The translations under genes were made by a program, and so were the position numbers. This document shows, piece by piece, positions 50,171 through 59,777 of a DNA stretch of 64,000 nt (within the stretch, counting starts at the first letter, position 1; every line of letters starts with the position of its first letter). The stretch spans positions 1 to 64,000 of the forward strand of contig MPNJ01000012.1 in assembly GCA_002238965.1 (NCBI GenBank), in the 5' to 3' direction. The notes under the pieces are model-generated. The model ran no database searches. It was not told where the DNA came from and saw only the letters and a program-made list of their open reading frames with translations. Source of the stretch: Nitrospinae bacterium bin107. GTDB lineage: Bacteria > UBA8248.

Positions 50171-50390
50171 TTATTGGGGATGATATCAACTAGGACACAG
50201 AAGGCTTGACATGAATCGTAGGCGTGGCACCATTTGACAACCAACCTTAAAGGTATGCTGGTCATGCATATTCATCGAGACCTTGGCGTCAGCCTAAAAT
50301 ATACTTGGCGAAAATTTCAAAAGAAAATAAAACTTGCTTGTATGGGCGACCAAGTGTTGTGTTCCACTGTTTTCATGTTTGGGAGTACTT

Positions 50391-51533
50391 ATGATGCGCG
50401 TTGCTATTAAGCCGGAACTTTTCCGCTGGGCGCGCATTCGTGCTGATATGCAACCAGATTCTTTGGCACAGCGGTTTCCAAAGTATCGTGAATGGGAAAG
50501 CGGTGACGTACAACCGACATTGAAGCAACTTGAGGCATTCGCTAAAAAAACCCATGCGCCAATCGGGTATTTTTTCCTTTCAGAACCACCCAATGAACCT
50601 TTTCCAATTCCTGACTTCCGTACTATTGGAAGTTCGCCTATCGGACGGCCGAACCCGGATTTGCTTGACACCATTTATCTCTGTCAACAACGCCAGGAGT
50701 GGTACAGAGACTTCTCGCGCATAGAGGGCGAGGAGCCGCTCCCATTTGTTGGATCCGCGAGATTGGCAGAGGATGTGGAGGTAGCGGCAGCACGCATTCG
50801 AAATGCGCTTGAGTTCGACTTAAAAGAACGTGCCACGCTTGGGAACTGGGTGGATGCATTGCGTCGCTTCATTTCGCTGGCTGATGCGCTAGGAGTGCTG
50901 GTGATGGTGAACGGCGTCGTTGGTAACAACACACATCGAAAGCTCGATCCTCACGAATTCCGGGGTTTCGCTCTTGTTGATGATCTTGCTCCGCTCGTCT
51001 TTATTAACGGTGCAGATACGAAAGCTGCTCAGATGTTCACCTTGGCTCATGAACTGGTACATATTTGGTTGGGTCAAACTGCTCTTTCTGACAGCCACCC
51101 GACCTCGGTTCCGTCTCATGAAACTGAGTCCTGGTGTAACCGCGTGGCTGCTGAACTTCTGGTGCCACTTGGAGTACTGCGTGAAGAATATCGCAGGGGT
51201 GAGGAAATTTCTGCGGCACTTGCTCGCCTAGCGCGTCAGTTCAAGGTGAGCACACTGGTTATCTTGCGCCGAATTTATGATATTGGCGGGTTATCGCGAG
51301 ATCAACTAAATCAAGCCTATGCCGACGAACTTAAGCGATTGAAGAACATTCCCAGAGGTAGCGGCGGAAACTTTTATGCAACACAAGGCGTTAGAGTTGG
51401 CGATCGCTTCGCTCGCGCTGTGGTAACTAGCACTCTTGAAGGACAGACACTGTATCGCGATGCCTTCCGCTTACTTGGTTTTTCTAAATTGGAGACTTTC
51501 CATAAGTTTGCGGATGGGTTGGATGTGAATTGA
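50391..51533 (+). CDS. XRE/ImmA-IrrE family metallopeptidase (toxin-antitoxin type)
   Basis: A 380-residue protein. The N-terminal part (residues 1-55) resembles an XRE-type helix-turn-helix (FRWARIRADM, YREWESGDVQPTLKQLEAFA). The zinc-protease part has HELVHIW (His220, Glu221, His224) and RVAAELLVP with Glu255, as in ImmA/IrrE. The start is ATG 50391, with GGGAG upstream. The gene is richer in A and T than its neighbours, a sign of transfer. The following DUF4411 gene overlaps it, which is the known antitoxin-toxin pair arrangement. Confidence 0.87.
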   Translation: MMRVAIKPELFRWARIRADMQPDSLAQRFPKYREWESGDVQPTLKQLEAFAKKTHAPIGYFFLSEPPNEPFPIPDFRTIGSSPIGRPNPDLLDTIYLCQQRQEWYRDFSRIEGEEPLPFVGSARLAEDVEVAAARIRNALEFDLKERATLGNWVDALRRFISLADALGVLVMVNGVVGNNTHRKLDPHEFRGFALVDDLAPLVFINGADTKAAQMFTLAHELVHIWLGQTALSDSHPTSVPSHETESWCNRVAAELLVPLGVLREEYRRGEEISAALARLARQFKVSTLVILRRIYDIGGLSRDQLNQAYADELKRLKNIPRGSGGNFYATQGVRVGDRFARAVVTSTLEGQTLYRDAFRLLGFSKLETFHKFADGLDVN

Positions 51534-52027
51534 TGGCGTATCTTCTTGATACCAACGTATTTATAGAGGCGAAGAACCGATATTATGGGTTTGATTTTTG
51601 CCCCGCGTTCTGGAACTGGCTAATTGCTGCAAACAATGAGAGTAAAGTATTCAGTATTGAGAAGGTCGGCGACGAAATCAAGGCAGGTGATGATGAACTT
51701 GCGACATGGGCCATGGAGCGTGGCACCGAATTTTTTCTCGGGCTTCCGCCTGATGTATTCCCGGCTCTTGGGACGGTGAGCAACTGGGTATCGGACCAGA
51801 CCTATGAGCCAGCTGCTATCAATACATTTCTTCAAGACGCTGATTATTATCTAGTTGCACAAGCTCTTGTCGGTGAACACGAAGTAGTAACACATGAAAC
51901 ACCAGCAAATTCACGTAAGAGGGTCAAGATTCCCAACGTTTGCATAGGTCTCGGCATCAAATACGTGACGCCGTTTGAAATGTTGCGGCGCGAACGGGCG
52001 CGGTTTGTTTTGGGCATGGCATCATGA
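51533..52027 (+). CDS. DUF4411 PIN-like putative toxin
   Basis: A 164-residue protein with the DUF4411 / PIN-like start YLLDTNVFIEAKN (Asp6) and AWD-type central acidic residues (KVGDEIKAGDDEL), ending in KIPNVCIGLGIKYVTPFEMLRRE. PIN-domain ribonucleases use such Asp residues. ATG 51533 overlaps the TGA of the ImmA-like gene by one base. Low GC matches its partner. It is probably the nuclease toxin of a type II-like module with the upstream metallopeptidase regulator. Confidence 0.83.
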   Translation: MAYLLDTNVFIEAKNRYYGFDFCPAFWNWLIAANNESKVFSIEKVGDEIKAGDDELATWAMERGTEFFLGLPPDVFPALGTVSNWVSDQTYEPAAINTFLQDADYYLVAQALVGEHEVVTHETPANSRKRVKIPNVCIGLGIKYVTPFEMLRRERARFVLGMAS

Positions 52028-52172: not shown

Positions 52173-53078
52173 CTAACGCTCGGCATCGGTATACGCGGCG
52201 CGCTCTTCGTCCTTGAAGTCATCCAGAAGATTGTGACCGCCCTCTTTGGCCTGCCGGACGGTGAAGATGGGCGGCGGCACGTCCGGACGCCATTTGGTGG
52301 TCTCGGGCGGTTCGGGCCATTCATAGGGCAGGTGCCGATAGGCGTTAGGCGCTTTTGCTTCTTCGAGCAGCGCGGTCATGTCCTCGCAAATCCTGCGCTG
52401 GCCTACGTAATCCCCCACGATGCCCAGTTGCCGCCCGAAGGGGTACTGGACGAACACCGCTCTGGGCACGCAGACGCGCTCGGTGGTCTCGGGTACGTTG
52501 GAGATGATGACGGTGGCGATGCCCGCCTTTTCGATTTCGCGCTGAAGCAGTCCGCCGGACCGGTTGCAGAGCGGTCAGACCGGATAGAGAAAGGCCGCGT
52601 CCACGCCCTCTGCCTTCATCTTCTCGATCATCAGGGGCGCCGTGCGCTTCACCAGCGGGTTGAAGTTCGGGATGTAGCCCATGATGGAATAGAGCGTATC
52701 GGCCAGCGCGCCGATTTTCCCCTCTCTTTCGAATTCCAGGAAAATATCGACTGGCCAGGACACGTTCCTGTCCTCGGCCAGGAACGAGGTGTCGACGTGC
52801 AGATGGGAATATTCCACGTCGTGCTGGCCCGCCGTCTTGGGAATCTCCCGGTGGGTGGGGTCGCCCCACGTGCCCTCGCGGTGCTCTCTTTCGTAATCGA
52901 AAGAAACGTCGTCCTTCATGAAGATGCCGGCCGTGGAGACGAGCGTGACCTTGCACTGCGCAAGCGGTTTTTCCAACGGCGTCCAGGGCGTTTTGGCCGG
53001 GTCCGCGTGGCGCTGCGCCAGTACGCGATCGCGCGAGGTGGGGTGAAAATAGAACCCATCTACTTTTTCTATCGGCAT
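52173..53078 (-). CDS. Selenoprotein B-family reductase with UxxC motif, candidate selenoprotein
   Basis: Reads as one 301-residue protein from ATG 53078 to TAG 52173 with a single in-frame TGA at codon 168. The half before ends EGVDAAFLYPV, and the half after begins PLCNRSGGLLQREIEKAGIATV, so the site is Sec168-Pro-Leu-Cys171. The downstream half has VPETTERVCVPRAVFVQYPFGRQLG, matching the glycine/sarcosine/betaine reductase selenoprotein B-like family, whose members carry a Sec at this place. It is the last gene of a five-gene minus-strand operon. The substrate is unknown; family relatives reductively cleave C-N bonds. A plain stop codon would leave half a protein and is unlikely. Confidence 0.87.
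52548..52577 (-). promoter_or_regulatory. Sec UGA codon and possible SECIS hairpin
   Basis: The TGA is at 52577-52575 on the minus strand. About 15-29 bases downstream CGGTCC-GGC-GGACTG can form a six-pair stem with a GGC loop (one G-T pair), in the distance range of bacterial SECIS elements. Confidence 0.5.
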
Positions 53079-53107
53079 GCGTATCCTCGAATTCGGGGTT
53101 CCATGAT

Positions 53108-54376
53108 TCAGGCTGGAGACGCCCCTCTCTTATCTCTTTTCACCCAGCCGAGCAACACGACAAAGAAGCCGCAGAGGAAAAACATGAGCGCGAAGGTCGA
53201 AAGTCCCCAAAGGTAGGAGCCGTGCAGGTCGAAGAGGAAACCCGTGGTCCATGGCCCTGCCGAACCCCAGAGGGCGAAGCCCATCATCGCTACGCCGTTC
53301 ACGCGCCCGAAGCCCGGGCCTTCGAAATAATCCGCCAGGATGGCCGAGCCGGTGGGCCGCATGAGCCCCAGGGCGAGACCATTGGCGATCGTGCCCAGGT
53401 AGAAGCGGATTTGGGGGTCGCCCTGCTCGAAGTTGGCTAGAACCAGGACGGAGGCGATCCCGAGAACCACGCCGATGAGGAACGTCGGCACTCGGCCAAG
53501 GCGGTCCGAGACCGGGCTGATGAGGTTCGCTCCCACCTGGCATAAGCCCCAGATGGCGAACAGAACGCTCGCGGTTTCGAGCGAGAAGCCCTGATCCGTG
53601 GCGTGTGGCACCAGATGGACGAGCATCCCCGCAAAGGTGTACGCCATGGGCAGAAACGAACCCATGAAGAAGAAAAACGGCAGGTTGTACATGGAGACCG
53701 GCGGCTCATCGGCGGATGGAGGCGTTGGTTGCGGCGCTTCTTCATCCAGCAGGTTCTGAACGAAAGGAGCGTCGGCGATGGTGCCTTTGTCCGATGGGTG
53801 GTCCCTGTGAAAAATGATGCAGACGGGGAGCACGATGAGCAGGGTTACACCCGCCAGCGCTAAATAGCTCATCCGCCAGCCCAGGGCCGTGATGAGGTAG
53901 GGAGTCGCGATGTTCAGGCAGAAGGCCCCTCCCTGGCAGGTGTTGGAAATGCCCAGGGCAAGTCCTCTTTTTTTCACGAACCAGTTCGAGAGCGTGGGCA
54001 CCTGGGCAATCCACGTGCTCGCGGCGAAGCCCGCGCACAGGCCGATGTACATCAGATAAAAATGCCAGAGCGAGGAGATTTGGCTCCCGATGAGAAGCGA
54101 GAGGCCGAATACCACGACCCCCGCCGACATCGACGCCCGTATGCTCCAGCGGTCGGAAAAGATGCCCGCCAGCGGCGAGATGATCGCCTGGGCCAGCATG
54201 CCGATGGAAAAAGCAGCCGCCGTCGCCCCCCGGCTCCAGCCCAGCTCACCCGAGATTTCCTTGAAGAAGGGCCCGATGGTGGCGCGAATGGCGATGAGCG
54301 AAATCATGACGAGAAAGACCACGGCCAGAACCACCCAGCCGTACCAGAGGCGCGATTCGTCCCGCATGACGTTCAT
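53108..54376 (-). CDS. MFS transporter, monocarboxylate/oxalate-formate-like, copy A
   Basis: A 422-residue, twelve-helix major facilitator transporter. The N-terminal LWYGWVVLAVVFLVMISLIAIRATIGPFFKEI and GWSRGATAAAFSIGMLAQAI pattern is seen in MFS carriers related to the oxalate-formate antiporter and monocarboxylate transporter group. A central loop (residues about 205-235) is rich in Pro and Glu. It follows the second MFS gene by four bases and precedes the selenoprotein gene by 29. The two carriers are clear paralogues. A small carboxylate or zwitterion is a plausible substrate. Confidence 0.88.
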   Translation of the reverse strand: MNVMRDESRLWYGWVVLAVVFLVMISLIAIRATIGPFFKEISGELGWSRGATAAAFSIGMLAQAIISPLAGIFSDRWSIRASMSAGVVVFGLSLLIGSQISSLWHFYLMYIGLCAGFAASTWIAQVPTLSNWFVKKRGLALGISNTCQGGAFCLNIATPYLITALGWRMSYLALAGVTLLIVLPVCIIFHRDHPSDKGTIADAPFVQNLLDEEAPQPTPPSADEPPVSMYNLPFFFFMGSFLPMAYTFAGMLVHLVPHATDQGFSLETASVLFAIWGLCQVGANLISPVSDRLGRVPTFLIGVVLGIASVLVLANFEQGDPQIRFYLGTIANGLALGLMRPTGSAILADYFEGPGFGRVNGVAMMGFALWGSAGPWTTGFLFDLHGSYLWGLSTFALMFFLCGFFVVLLGWVKRDKRGASPA

Positions 54377-54380
54377 GGTC

Positions 54381-55670
54381 CTAAGCGCGCTCTTCGCGCG
54401 GCATACGCGAGAGGCTCACGACGAAAATCGCGCCAACGATGAACATGCCGCCCACGAGGAGAAAACCCGAATAATAGTTTCCGCTGGCGTCGAAAAGCAT
54501 CCCCGTCACGAGGGGGCCGAGTGCGCCAATGAGCGAGAAGACCATCATTGCGCACCCGTTCACGAGACCGAATCCCGGCCCCGCGAAATGATCCGCCAAC
54601 AGAGAGGACGCCGTGGGGCGGACGAAACCCAGGGCGAAACCCACCCCCATCGCGCCCGCGTATATCAGCCATTCGTGCGATGCGCGCGTGAAGGCGGCCA
54701 GGAGATAACTCGCGGCCACGCCGCACACCACGCCCACCATGTAGGTGGGGAGCCTCCCGATGCGATCCGAAACCGCGCTCAGCCCGTTTCCCACGACGAG
54801 GGCCGCCCCGTAAAGGGCGAAGAGCGCGGCGCCCCCCGAGGGAGAGAAGCCCTGGTCCGTCGCGTGGGGGATCAAATGCACCAGAACGGCGGTGAAGACA
54901 TACGCGATGCTGCCGTATATTCCTCCGATCAGCATGAACCTGCGGGTGAAGAAAAAAGTAAAGGATACAGTTTCCGTTTCTTTATCCGCAGGAATGATAA
55001 CGGCGGCCCTGGCGCGGGCGCGGGAGAACTCCTCAGACGTGAGAAAAGGCGCGTCGGGAGCGGTTCGCTTCTCTCTGGGGTGGTCGCGCAGCGTCGTCAC
55101 GGCGAAGGGCAGCACGAGGAGGAGCACGATTCCCGCAAGCGCCAGGTAGCTCCCCCGCCAGCCGAGTGCCGCGATGAGCAGGGGAGTGAAGATGTTCACG
55201 ATGGGCGCGAAGCCCTGGGCTGCGTGCGAAAACCCCATGGCGAGGCCGCGCTTCAAGACGAACCAGTTCGAGAGCAGTTGCACCTGCGGCAGGTTGGCCG
55301 TGAAGGCGAAGCCGACCGATAGCAGGAAATACATGGCGTAGAATTGCCAGAGGGCGCCGATATAGGCTCCGATGATGAGCGCCGCTCCGTTCACGAGGAT
55401 GCCTGCGCCGATCACCCAGCGCATGTTGAAACGCTCGAGCACCCAGCCCGCGAAGGGGGCGACCATCGCCTGGCCGAGCATGCCCATGGTGAAGGCGGCG
55501 GCTGTCTCCGCGCGGTTCCAGCCGAACTCGCCAGAGATGTCCTTGAAGAAAACGCCGATGGAGTTTCTGATGCCGATGGTCACCGTCAGGATCATGAAGA
55601 CACTGAGGAGGATCACCCACCCGTACCACAGGCGCAGTTCTTTGCTCATCTGGTAGCGCGATGCGATCAA
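54381..55670 (-). CDS. MFS transporter, monocarboxylate/oxalate-formate-like, copy B
   Basis: A 429-residue paralogue of the transporter at 53108. It starts with LWYGWVILLSVFMILTVTIGIRNSIGVFFKDISGEFGWNRAETAAAFTMGMLGQAM. The probable start is TTG 55670, overlapping the NifU-like stop; ATG 55649 (MSKELRLWYGW) is the alternative. Both copies conserve the DRxGRxP loop (SDRIGRLPTYMVG here, SDRLGRVPTFLIG in copy A). Two carriers side by side could import a substrate and export a product, or serve two related substrates. Confidence 0.86.
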   Translation of the reverse strand: MIASRYQMSKELRLWYGWVILLSVFMILTVTIGIRNSIGVFFKDISGEFGWNRAETAAAFTMGMLGQAMVAPFAGWVLERFNMRWVIGAGILVNGAALIIGAYIGALWQFYAMYFLLSVGFAFTANLPQVQLLSNWFVLKRGLAMGFSHAAQGFAPIVNIFTPLLIAALGWRGSYLALAGIVLLLVLPFAVTTLRDHPREKRTAPDAPFLTSEEFSRARARAAVIIPADKETETVSFTFFFTRRFMLIGGIYGSIAYVFTAVLVHLIPHATDQGFSPSGGAALFALYGAALVVGNGLSAVSDRIGRLPTYMVGVVCGVAASYLLAAFTRASHEWLIYAGAMGVGFALGFVRPTASSLLADHFAGPGFGLVNGCAMMVFSLIGALGPLVTGMLFDASGNYYSGFLLVGGMFIVGAIFVVSLSRMPREERA

Positions 55671-56005
55671 GACGATGATTGGTCTTTAAGCGGTTGCCCC
55701 ACCCAAAACGAATAGCCGGAGTAGAATTTCTCGACACGTCTGATGGCGTGATCCGAAATGCGGACACCCTCGACCGCGACGTCCGTGACGCCGGGGTGCT
55801 GCATGAGCTTCTGGCGCACGCCCAGGGCGTAGGTGACGCTCTTGAGCATGCAGCCGCGGCACGCGCCCTCGAACCGCAGCGATACTTCGCCTTTTTCGCT
55901 CACTTTATCGAGCGTGATTCCGCCGCCGTGAATCTTGAGAAGCGGGCGAATCTGCGTCTCGATGATGTCCTGGACGTCGGTGACGAGGGCTTCGTGGTCG
56001 CTCAT
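55667..56005 (-). CDS. NifU C-terminal-domain iron-sulfur protein
   Basis: A 112-residue protein with the NifU-like domain: IRPLLKIHGGGITLDKVSE, the FEGACRGCMLKSVTYALGV block (Cys49, Cys52) and HPGVTDVAVEGVRI. The CxxC binds a transient Fe-S cluster that is passed to other proteins. It overlaps both neighbours by four bases (ATGA, TTGA), showing tight translational coupling. In this operon it may supply a cluster to a redox enzyme; that is inference. Confidence 0.88.
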   Translation of the reverse strand: MSDHEALVTDVQDIIETQIRPLLKIHGGGITLDKVSEKGEVSLRFEGACRGCMLKSVTYALGVRQKLMQHPGVTDVAVEGVRISDHAIRRVEKFYSGYSFWVGQPLKDQSSS

Positions 56006-57030
56006 CGGGCTGCTCCGCTCCAGAGTTCCTGTTTCTTGGCCTCCACGTCCACGCCGAAGATGCGCGCCTGGTTCAGGCCCAGAATGTTGCGCTTGTCCTC
56101 TTCGGTGATCTGCGGATAGCCGTAGTCATCCTGCATGGATTCTGGGATTTCCATCTCCCATATCCACTCGATAACGGGCTTCGCGTTTCCGAGAAGCGCC
56201 ATCTCGGAACCCCAGAGCACTCTCTCGGAGCCCACGTCGCGCAACAATCTGCCCATCCACTCGGTGAAGGTTCGGGGCGCGACCATGGGCGTATGGCCGA
56301 TGCCCGAGAGCACGAGGAAGACGTTCTCGTAGCGGTTCGCCATCCAGACGACTTCCTCGAAGTAGGGCACCGCCAGGTGGTGGATGCCGAAGAGAAGATC
56401 CGGAAAATCAAGGGCCGCGCCCTCGATGTCGAGTGGTGAGAGGTCGCGCAGCTTCGCCCGCGTGATGGGGTTTCCCTTGTGGAACTGGAATACCTCGATG
56501 CCCAGTTCGCGCCCTTTCTCATAGAGGGGGTAGGCGATTTCGGGGTCGTCGCACGCCCAGGATTTTCCGTCCACGTGGGCGTTGTAGATTTTCATGGATT
56601 TCGCCCCCCACTCCTTCACCTGGCGTTCCATCTCCTCGCACGCTGCGGCGACGCTCGGGTACATCGGGTCCACGGCCCCGCAGAACAGGCAGCGCTCGGG
56701 AAACGCCTGCGCGAAGGCGTACTGCGCCTTCACGGGCGCGAAGCCGTCCTTGTAGAGGTCGAACAGGGGTACGGCCTGGGCCATCGCCATGTCGGTGCCC
56801 GAATCCTCGAAAACGAGGCGGCCCATGTCCTCCACGCTCCAGCGGCGCTTGAAGCCCTCCACCGGGTGCCAGTTCGCGTAGACGTCCGTGGGCGCGGTTC
56901 GCCTACGGCGCAGCACCTTGCTCACGTGATAGTGGCGGTCGTATTCGCTTTGCTCCGAGACGAGGTTCTCATCCGAGTAGTCGTACATGTGCACCACGTT
57001 GTCGAATACGAATACGTCGTCGCGGATCAT
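56002..57030 (-). CDS. Amidohydrolase-2 family protein
   Basis: A 342-residue protein of the amidohydrolase-2 (ACMSD-like) group. The usual N-terminal HxH is replaced by FDNVVHMYDY. Further metal-site blocks are IEVFQFHKGN, LLFGIHHLAVPYFEE and RVLWGSEMALLG. Thus only part of the canonical metal site is recognisable. It starts the operon with AAAGGAG upstream of ATG 57030 and overlaps the NifU-like gene. Decarboxylase or hydrolase activity is probable; the substrate is not known. Confidence 0.78.
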   Translation of the reverse strand: MIRDDVFVFDNVVHMYDYSDENLVSEQSEYDRHYHVSKVLRRRRTAPTDVYANWHPVEGFKRRWSVEDMGRLVFEDSGTDMAMAQAVPLFDLYKDGFAPVKAQYAFAQAFPERCLFCGAVDPMYPSVAAACEEMERQVKEWGAKSMKIYNAHVDGKSWACDDPEIAYPLYEKGRELGIEVFQFHKGNPITRAKLRDLSPLDIEGAALDFPDLLFGIHHLAVPYFEEVVWMANRYENVFLVLSGIGHTPMVAPRTFTEWMGRLLRDVGSERVLWGSEMALLGNAKPVIEWIWEMEIPESMQDDYGYPQITEEDKRNILGLNQARIFGVDVEAKKQELWSGAAR

Positions 57031-58241: not shown

Positions 58242-58634
58242 TCAGAGAACGTCCTCGCTTTCGAGCAGCACCTTGGCCTTCGCGTCGTCATCCGCTGTGA
58301 GGGCGACGTTCGCGTAACCGGCGTGGCGGTTCAGGATGTGCATGCTCTGGATGTTCACGCCGGCGACCTTGAATTTCTCCGCCACCTTGGCGAGAGCGCC
58401 CGGCTCGTCGCGCAGCCTGATGACCGTCGCCTCGTCCGAGATCGCGCGGAAGCCCGCGTTCATGAGCACGCGCAGGGCGCGATCGGGCTCGTTCGTGGTG
58501 AGGATGACGACGCCTTTCTCGCCGGCAACCTCGGTGTTGATCGCCTCGATGTTGATGGATTCATCAGCCAGCGCCTTGCTGATATCCGCGATGACGCCGA
58601 CCTCGTCGCGCACCGTGATGATGATTCGATTCAT
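58242..58634 (-). CDS. Double ACT-domain protein
   Basis: A 130-residue protein made of two ACT domains: IITVRDEVGVIADISKALADESINIEAINTEV and RDEPGALAKVAEKFKVAGVNIQSMHIL. Such stand-alone ACT proteins bind amino acids and regulate nearby enzymes. AGGAGG precedes ATG 58634. It follows histidine decarboxylase by 12 bases on the same strand. The natural partner is probably histidine or another amino acid. Confidence 0.88.
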   Translation of the reverse strand: MNRIIITVRDEVGVIADISKALADESINIEAINTEVAGEKGVVILTTNEPDRALRVLMNAGFRAISDEATVIRLRDEPGALAKVAEKFKVAGVNIQSMHILNRHAGYANVALTADDDAKAKVLLESEDVL

Positions 58635-58646
58635 CCAGAATCCTCC

Positions 58647-59777
58647 TCAGGCCGTTTGCCTGTGTTTATGCTTCACGCAGTCGTCGACGAACTCGTTCAC
58701 CATCTCGCGCGTGACGTGCGGCATGGTGATGATGTGGGCGATGTCTCCCAGCGGCGCGATCTGCCACTTGCGCATCACCTCGGCCGGGGGTCTCGGAAAA
58801 ACGACCGTCACCGAGTTCTTGTGACGCCAGGCAGGGATGCCGAACTCGCCAAAGCGCTCGACTGCGTACGCGGCGACAGCCAGCATCTCCTTCACGAGTT
58901 CCCGGAACCCGTCCATCCCCAGGCGCTCGAAGGCGTACCACAGCATGAGCGGCGTAAGCCCGCTGCGCGAGCCGGGTAGCGTCGTGTCGAGCACGCCGAC
59001 GTATTCTATCGAGCGCGCGATGCGCGCCACGTAATCGCGCTTCGTCAGCACGACGCCGCAGGGCAGCGGACAGCCGATGAGCTTGTGGCCGCTGATGGAG
59101 ACGCTGTCGAAACCGGCGTCGAAGCCGTAGGGCTGCGGGTCGTCGACGAAGGGCAGGATCATGCCGCTCAGGGCGGCGTCGGCGTGGATGTAGGCGTTCG
59201 TGACCGCCAGGTCGTCCAGGATGCCGCGCACCCTGCTCACGTCGTCCACGGCGCCTTTCATCGTGGAGCCGATGTTCGCCATGAAGATGACGGGAGAATC
59301 GCGGTGGATGCGGATGGTCTCGCGGAGGTCCTCGTAGTCGATTTCTCCGTTTTCCTGACTTTTGATCATGATGTTGCGCACGTTCAGCACGCGCAGAATC
59401 TTGAGGACGCTGTAGTGCGTGTCCTGGGAGAAATAGACCACCCCGTCCGGGAACAGTTCGCGCCCCATGTAGATGCCGTACATGTTGCCCTCGGTTCCGC
59501 CGGAGGTGACGTAGCCCCAGGCGTGTTCCTGCTCCAGGCGCATCAACGAGGCGAACCGGGCGATGACCTCGCGCTCGATCTCATGGGTATTGCTGCGGAA
59601 ATTGCTGTCGTGAAAGGGGTCGCCCACGTTGTTGAGGCTGTATTCCATGAAGGGCAGTAAATCCGAGTAATCGAAATTCTGGTTGCAGGGATAACCCACC
59701 TGGAGCCTGCTCAGTTCCTCGAATTCGCTTCTCAAGGCGTCGAGATGCGCCCTGGTGAGTGGATTCGGTTCGTTCAT
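58647..59777 (-). CDS. hdc: Pyridoxal-phosphate histidine decarboxylase
   Basis: A 376-residue PLP group II decarboxylase. PLP-site blocks are TSGGTEGNMYGIYMGRE, YFSQDTHYSVLKILR (His121), YIHADAALSGMILPF (Asp200) and SISGHKLIGCPLPCGV (Lys232). The early GYPCNQNFDYSDLLPF matches histidine decarboxylases of Gram-negative bacteria, which form histamine and CO2; other amino acids cannot be fully excluded. It is paired with an ACT-domain protein. Confidence 0.83.
   Translation of the reverse strand: MNEPNPLTRAHLDALRSEFEELSRLQVGYPCNQNFDYSDLLPFMEYSLNNVGDPFHDSNFRSNTHEIEREVIARFASLMRLEQEHAWGYVTSGGTEGNMYGIYMGRELFPDGVVYFSQDTHYSVLKILRVLNVRNIMIKSQENGEIDYEDLRETIRIHRDSPVIFMANIGSTMKGAVDDVSRVRGILDDLAVTNAYIHADAALSGMILPFVDDPQPYGFDAGFDSVSISGHKLIGCPLPCGVVLTKRDYVARIARSIEYVGVLDTTLPGSRSGLTPLMLWYAFERLGMDGFRELVKEMLAVAAYAVERFGEFGIPAWRHKNSVTVVFPRPPAEVMRKWQIAPLGDIAHIITMPHVTREMVNEFVDDCVKHKHRQTA

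Follow-up and report, generated by a model that had tools for sequence, protein, structure and literature searches.

A conserved five-gene operon of a Nitrospinae bacterium joins a PrdB-like selenoprotein to an amidohydrolase-fold enzyme, a NifU-like protein and two putative organic-anion carriers

What does a selenoprotein of the GrdB/PrdB superfamily do when no partner subunit is encoded beside it? D-proline reductase requires a second, pyruvoyl-bearing subunit, PrdA, and the PrdA-type protein (PF09338) is normally encoded beside PrdB. The question is raised by five minus-strand genes at positions 52173-57030 of a 64,000-nucleotide stretch of Nitrospinae bacterium bin107 (MPNJ01000012.1, positions 1 to 64,000). 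This whole stretch, hereafter the window, corresponds to contig C24 in a genome of 4.37 Mb and 96% completeness. The genes encode an amidohydrolase-2 family protein, a NifU-like (NFU-domain) protein, two carriers of the major facilitator superfamily (MFS1 and MFS2) and a selenocysteine (Sec) protein (Table 1). The operon is well supported, and its probable role is to import a small organic acid and degrade it; its chemistry we infer. Our preferred reading, to which we give a probability of roughly one in three, is a genus-specific catabolic operon in which organic-anion uptake and a decarboxylase- or hydrolase-type step would be combined with a partner-free, Sec-dependent reductive cleavage.

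The initial annotation had described the five genes as one operon, joined by two 4-base overlaps and gaps of 4 and 29 bases. Its coordinates and junctions (-4, -4, +4 and +29 bases) were confirmed, and all five proteins score above the Pfam gathering thresholds. All five genes were present in the same order in five of the six other genomes of the genus that we compared; the sixth, G009, is 79% complete, and the amidohydrolase and NifU genes were not found there. The mean ratio of nonsynonymous to synonymous substitution (dN/dS) was lowest for the amidohydrolase (0.04) and lay at 0.10-0.14 in the remaining genes (15 genome pairs; mean dS 0.26-0.38), and all five genes are under purifying selection. 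Since the genes are kept in order in five of six genomes with low dN/dS, the operon is more than a chance arrangement. This supports one transcription-unit-like block, whose genes are presumably co-transcribed. The 29-base gap before the Sec gene is retained in all six operons; in three of these the third gap was computed as 7, since the BLAST match used for the coordinates ended one residue early. The TTG start of MFS1 is supported by two observations: its overlap with the NifU-like gene is kept in 6/6 operons, and 4/6 lack the in-frame ATG that stands at codon 8. Co-occurrence in other genomes, which the annotation had named as a test of the operon, holds only within the window's genus: among the other genomes searched, which included 368 sampled outside the phylum, none was seen to carry the complete five-gene set.

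The last gene is interrupted by an in-frame TGA, which stands at the same codon in all 47 homologous rows read. Sec homologues occur in all 18 genomes of the phylum compared, and every match that covers the Sec site contains the in-frame TGA; two match pieces without it end before that site. Both Sec168 and Cys171 of the resulting motif, U168-P-L-C171, are invariant in 12 of 12 diverse aligned rows. The window's genome has the decoding machinery (SelB, 386 bits; tRNA-Sec, 75.9 bits), and among the 18 phylum genomes tRNA-Sec is over the cut-off in 16 and SelB in 14. Control genomes also match (tRNA-Sec in 14/14, five over cut-off; SelB in 14/14, two over cut-off), and only top scores therefore count. 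Bacterial selenocysteine insertion sequence (SECIS) elements consist of a stem-loop shortly after the UGA, with a G starting the apical loop. The operon Sec gene has both features, namely a six-pair apical stem 3' of the TGA and a loop that starts with G in all 37 distinct sequences (47 rows). Pairing in this stem reached 90.5% of cells versus 85.7% in shuffles (0/1000 reach it), and seven cells were changed on both sides versus a shuffle mean of 1.0 (0/1000); the stem region is coding, and these figures do not separate coding constraint from stem conservation. One could still suppose that the TGA is a real stop in a decaying pseudogene, as single-sequence folds after it are not unusually stable. 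This is hardly credible and is disfavored by the conserved TGA codon, the in-frame TGA of homologues in 18/18 phylum genomes, the reading frame conserved beyond it at a dN/dS of 0.08-0.13, and the presence of SelB and tRNA-Sec. As judged by its conservation, the TGA is read as selenocysteine.

The protein had been annotated as a GrdB-type reductase. It does belong to the GrdB/PrdB superfamily as a Sec protein without a local partner, but the label is imprecise. Its match to the GRDB profile covers only positions 218-344 of 347, so that the N-terminal half of the profile is missing, whereas the genome's own GrdB matches positions 1-347. The best NCBIfam model is TIGR04483 (PrdB), at 128.1 bits versus an equivalog cut-off of 300. 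The two are alike in size and in a UxxC motif with Sec, which is the motif listed for PrdB in the available part of one review (PMC13188914). The profile match spans residues 30-254 of 301, leaving about 50 residues beyond it. Our comparisons thus place the selenoprotein as a PrdB-like member of the superfamily, without PrdA. A true PrdB, or a remnant of D-proline reductase, has the best family model in its favor and is nevertheless very improbable, given a score far under the cut-off and no PrdA/GrdE-type neighbor; the genome's lone PF09338 match lies next to GrdA on another contig, C4. Structural comparison gave no functional lead from the fold: a search of the PDB with the Sec family profile returned nothing credible (best E 0.38), Foldseek returned no match at E <= 0.001, and VIA-align reached Z scores up to 7.8 only, with folds taken as unrelated.

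Contig C4 also bears on the claim that GrdA is absent, which holds for the operon and not for the genome. It encodes GrdA (with TGA), a GrdE-type (PF09338) protein and the full-length GrdB. Because this PF09338 match, beside GrdA, is the only one in the genome, none of the genome's three PrdB-like genes has a PrdA/GrdE-type neighbor. The C4 genes make it conceivable that the operon protein is a substrate-specific protein B, passing its selenoether to GrdA and GrdC from another part of the genome, with acetyl phosphate as the product. Protein B of the fluoroacetate operon farACEB is predicted to feed the common GrdA/GrdC in this manner, according to the portion of that report available (PMC10838667). 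We regard this as unlikely for the operon protein, considering its partial coverage of the GRDB profile, the lack of a GrdE-like neighbor, and its homologues in genomes G003 (96% complete) and G011 (95%), in which neither GrdA nor PF09338 was found. Since homologues occur in these two genomes without either partner being found, the family seems able to work without GrdA or GrdE/PrdA. Separately, four genomes (G010:C105, G013:C202, G014:C250 and G017:C216) have a second PF09338 gene, each immediately upstream of a weak Sec match that has a long open frame. These pairs probably represent extra substrate-specific protein B complexes.

The closest precedent for the operon is farACEB itself, from Synergistota, which the accessible text describes as a fluoroacetate-induced operon in which GrdB- and GrdE-like proteins accompany an MFS carrier of the oxalate/formate type (PMC10838667). 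Its authors propose a nucleophilic attack of Sec on the C-F bond (PMC10838667). The likeness would be one of working principle, not of membership. Both are small operons (four genes in far) without grdA or grdC, and both place an MFS carrier, of the oxalate/formate kind in far and a candidate for that kind here, beside a Sec protein of the GrdB superfamily. As described there, however, far includes a radical SAM protein and a GrdE-like subunit, neither of which is encoded by the five-gene operon, and it lacks both amidohydrolase and NifU. FarB is presented as a homologue of GrdB that feeds GrdA/GrdC, while the operon protein is PrdB-like and alone; this comparison was made by description, not by sequence.

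The two carriers are paralogous, with 47-49% identity in cross matches, and the earlier view of them as monocarboxylate-type proteins is supported by their best NCBIfam hits, all of them below cut-off, which point to the monocarboxylate/oxalate-formate kind. MFS1 has monocarboxylate transporters as its nearest solved structures; for MFS2 a single solved relative, the bacterial L-lactate transporter 6g9x, reached E <= 1e-5. An arginine in the presumed tenth helix is common to the three carriers aligned, the third being that of a sister genus genome, G012.

The amidohydrolase is predicted to form a triosephosphate isomerase (TIM) barrel (AlphaFold 2 model, mean predicted local distance difference test score, pLDDT, 84). 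Foldseek matched this model best to 2,6-dihydroxybenzoate decarboxylase (E 4e-11, TM about 0.6) and then to other amidohydrolase-2 enzymes, with 2dvt, 3irs and 3s4t among the first six rows. The likeness to these enzymes, including the non-oxidative dihydroxybenzoate decarboxylases 2dvt and 4qro, lies in the predicted fold, and identity is about 15%. Metal ligands of amidohydrolase-2 enzymes are HxH or ExH after strand 1 and an Asp in the last strand, a motif that the operon enzyme does not have. Position 12 is Val in all seven close rows (V12-V-H14) and H, H, Q, H and E in five distant relatives; position 276 is Glu in the same seven rows and Asp in the five relatives. Cys117 and Cys160 are conserved in close rows only. 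The model is suggestive of an enzyme resembling dihydroxybenzoate decarboxylases with an altered metal site. A second amidohydrolase copy (66-69%) is found in four genomes of the genus. In the two such loci read, two M24/creatinase-like genes and a VOC-type gene adjoin it (families tested in one; an example is L122:6288-10821 on G000 contig C34), possibly marking a sister pathway.

The NifU-like protein, which phmmer matches to NifU-like/NFU1 structures, had been proposed to supply a cluster. It was found in the same seven of 386 sampled genomes as the amidohydrolase (at least 66% identity), and it adjoins the amidohydrolase gene in all seven genomes holding both at high identity. Weaker amidohydrolase matches, at 30-35%, occur in six more genomes; for such homologues in four other families (L126-L133), tblastn found none of the other four operon proteins. 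NifU thus travels with the amidohydrolase and not with the selenoprotein. G012 carries an amidohydrolase-NifU-MFS block without the Sec gene (74%, 63% and 49% identity; one carrier only), at the same place beside EamA-type and NuoA-like genes. Together with the shared distribution in 7/386 genomes, this block makes it unlikely that NifU serves the reductase. The most economical interpretation is that the Sec gene was added to the block in the window's genus. The gene that directly follows the G012 block (L121:12211-15384) is nitrile hydratase alpha-like and has the opposite orientation; past it, two further proteins read as amidohydrolases by our own inspection.

By analogy with PrdB, GrdB and farACEB, we propose an order of steps for substrates of the small organic-anion class. 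The two related carriers would import a small organic anion, or exchange it against the product. The amidohydrolase-fold enzyme, aided by the NifU-like protein as its constant companion, would perform a decarboxylation or hydrolysis. The Sec168 selenolate may then attack the carbon adjoining a carboxyl or carbonyl group, displacing an amine, thiol or halide. Cys171 would resolve the intermediate as a selenenylsulfide, which general cell thiols would then reduce. The selenoprotein would act alone, without GrdA or a PrdA/GrdE-type partner.

Relatives of the selenoprotein outside the operon bear on this proposal. A scan of genome contigs with the Sec family found 27 loci; neighboring genes were called with a simple open reading frame finder, and a minority of them were tested against family libraries. 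When 45 Sec homologues are placed in a tree, the operon copies, six in number, group in a single clade (100/100); its sister group (99/93) consists of two genus g6 genes located behind a cyclase. This PF04199 cyclase is directly upstream of the Sec homologue in two g6 genomes (PF04199 tested in one), and likewise in two genomes from one genus of a distant family (L187 and L188). Pairs of a hydrolase and a Sec gene thus recur, which we count in favor of the proposed catabolic function. The most constant partner of the family seen in the phylum is a protein with MDMPI_N, a domain of the mycothiol-dependent isomerase type, and SCP2. It directly precedes the Sec homologue in 11 loci from four genera (domains tested in one, L056:9583-11378), and these 11 homologues are not one clade in the tree. 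In a more distant Sec group, the neighbors include an alpha/beta hydrolase and a cysteine-dioxygenase-like gene. For homologues at 40-47% (L094-L100), no common neighbor was seen across the seven loci read; a nitronate monooxygenase-like gene is near two of them (family-tested in one). Outside the phylum, a homologue was found in 35 of the 368 sampled genomes, with the TGA in 37 of 41 matches.

Several observations weigh against partner-free reductive cleavage as part of a catabolic operon. Neighbors of the Sec family change farther from the genus, and the Sec gene is outside the G012 amidohydrolase-NifU-MFS block; for these two reasons it may be a late addition. At 20 loci outside the phylum (of the 41 matches), amidohydrolase, NifU, carriers and GrdE-like proteins were found in none, by single-protein tblastn of limited reach. 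In the other four operon proteins we noticed, by our own reading, no Fe-S motif that would explain NifU. The best NCBIfam matches of the carriers (SfMCT, MCT and oxalate/formate antiporter) are all far below cut-offs, with 32-58 bits against the oxalate/formate antiporter models TIGR00890 and TIGR04259 (cut-offs 335-375). Furthermore, Arg at chain position 280 of 6g9x, which we take to be the substrate-binding Arg of transmembrane helix 8, is replaced by Asn in MFS2, by Asn in MFS1 and by Tyr in the G012 carrier (the latter two via the MFS2 alignment). As for Sec coding, SECIS folds of single sequences do not exceed shuffles in stability (z -0.46 to -0.01), and sliding the 3' side of the stem by one column gave 11 double changes versus 7, but pairing of only 60%.

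Some of these observations suit a different role, that of a general selenol-thiol redox protein (UxxC) whose gene was added behind an older block of amidohydrolase, NifU and MFS genes. In this role the selenoprotein would protect or re-reduce the enzymes of the block, and the pathway would include no reductive cleavage. The G012 block without a Sec gene and the widely varying neighbors of the family, behind MDMPI_N/SCP2 in 11 loci and near cysteine-dioxygenase-like and hydrolase genes elsewhere, fit such a helper. The fixed place and 29-base gap in six of six operons, under purifying selection, do not, and the characterized superfamily members GrdB and PrdB are substrate reductases in the parts available of two reports (PMC13188914, PMC10838667). 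We consider the helper role a tentative explanation that ranks nearly as likely as the reductive cleavage that we prefer.

The selenoprotein family as such is already known as "PrdB" in marine surveys and reviews, as far as the available excerpts go (PMC1088965, PMC2398784, PMC9312934, PMC13188914). The surveys assign UxxC Sec proteins to PrdB/pfam07355, with 42 genes from the Sargasso Sea (PMC1088965) and 235 from the Global Ocean Sampling (GOS) data (PMC2398784), and PrdB-type selenoproteins are among the commonest in both (PMC1088965, PMC2398784). The operon protein is likewise a UxxC Sec protein and a candidate member of the same subgroup. In those excerpts the marine proteins are named as a proline reductase subunit only, and no operon or other function is given. 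Our literature searches found no paper on this five-gene set, in line with the earlier statement that no characterized pathway is known to have it, and none on a PrdB-like protein in such a setting; both the operon and the setting are new to the literature searched. Here, a PrdB-like protein is found in a fixed metabolic setting, alongside carriers and an enzyme of the decarboxylase/hydrolase type, with no PrdA or GrdA beside it. With these five genes, the function of a widespread, uncharacterized group of selenoproteins becomes testable. The arrangement also points to a possible stand-alone enzyme that carries out the selenol chemistry known from glycine and proline reductases. As a long shot, the protein could be an orphan single-subunit PrdB-type enzyme that removes halide or another alpha-leaving group from imported small acids. 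Such a partner-free class of selenium-dependent dehalogenases, if true, might explain the abundant marine "PrdB" selenoproteins.

Table 1. Features of the five-gene operon, in window coordinates.
Feature	Position	Strand	Details
Amidohydrolase-2 family protein, 342 aa, first gene	56002-57030	-	Pfam PF04909, 97 bits (gathering 26.4)
NifU-like (NFU-domain) protein, 112 aa	55667-56005	-	Pfam PF01106, 58.4 bits (gathering 27); CxxC (C-R-G-C); 4-base overlap with amidohydrolase gene
MFS carrier 1 (MFS1), 429 aa, TTG start	54381-55670	-	Pfam PF07690 (MFS_1), 136 bits; 4-base overlap with NifU-like gene
MFS carrier 2 (MFS2), 422 aa	53108-54376	-	Pfam PF07690 (MFS_1), 144 bits; gap of 4 after MFS1
Selenoprotein of GrdB/PrdB superfamily, 301 aa, last gene	52173-53078	-	Pfam PF07355 (GRDB), 37.7 bits (gathering 22); gap of 29 after MFS2
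In-frame TGA, Sec168 codon	52575-52577	-	Same codon in homologues
SECIS-like element, apical stem-loop	52548-52562	-	Loop GGC; 12 bases 3' of TGA

An Rfam scan of the whole window gave no match, and ARAGORN found no tRNA on it. Behind the operon, a Peptidase_M78 (IrrE-like) gene that overlaps a DUF4411 gene (50334-52027, plus strand) sits between the Sec gene and a phosphodiesterase gene. In five same-genus relatives 48-344 bases separate the Sec gene from the phosphodiesterase gene behind it. No match to either gene of the Peptidase_M78/DUF4411 pair was found at these five loci, and the pair therefore looks like a recent insertion; by our own reading it is toxin-antitoxin-like. Upstream of the operon, at 58242-59777 on the minus strand, are a gene of the histidine decarboxylase type (PRK02769, 475 bits; cut-off 305) and one whose product we read as an ACT-domain-like protein. 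This region was matched at the same place in four of the five same-genus loci, and the fifth locus ends at a contig edge.

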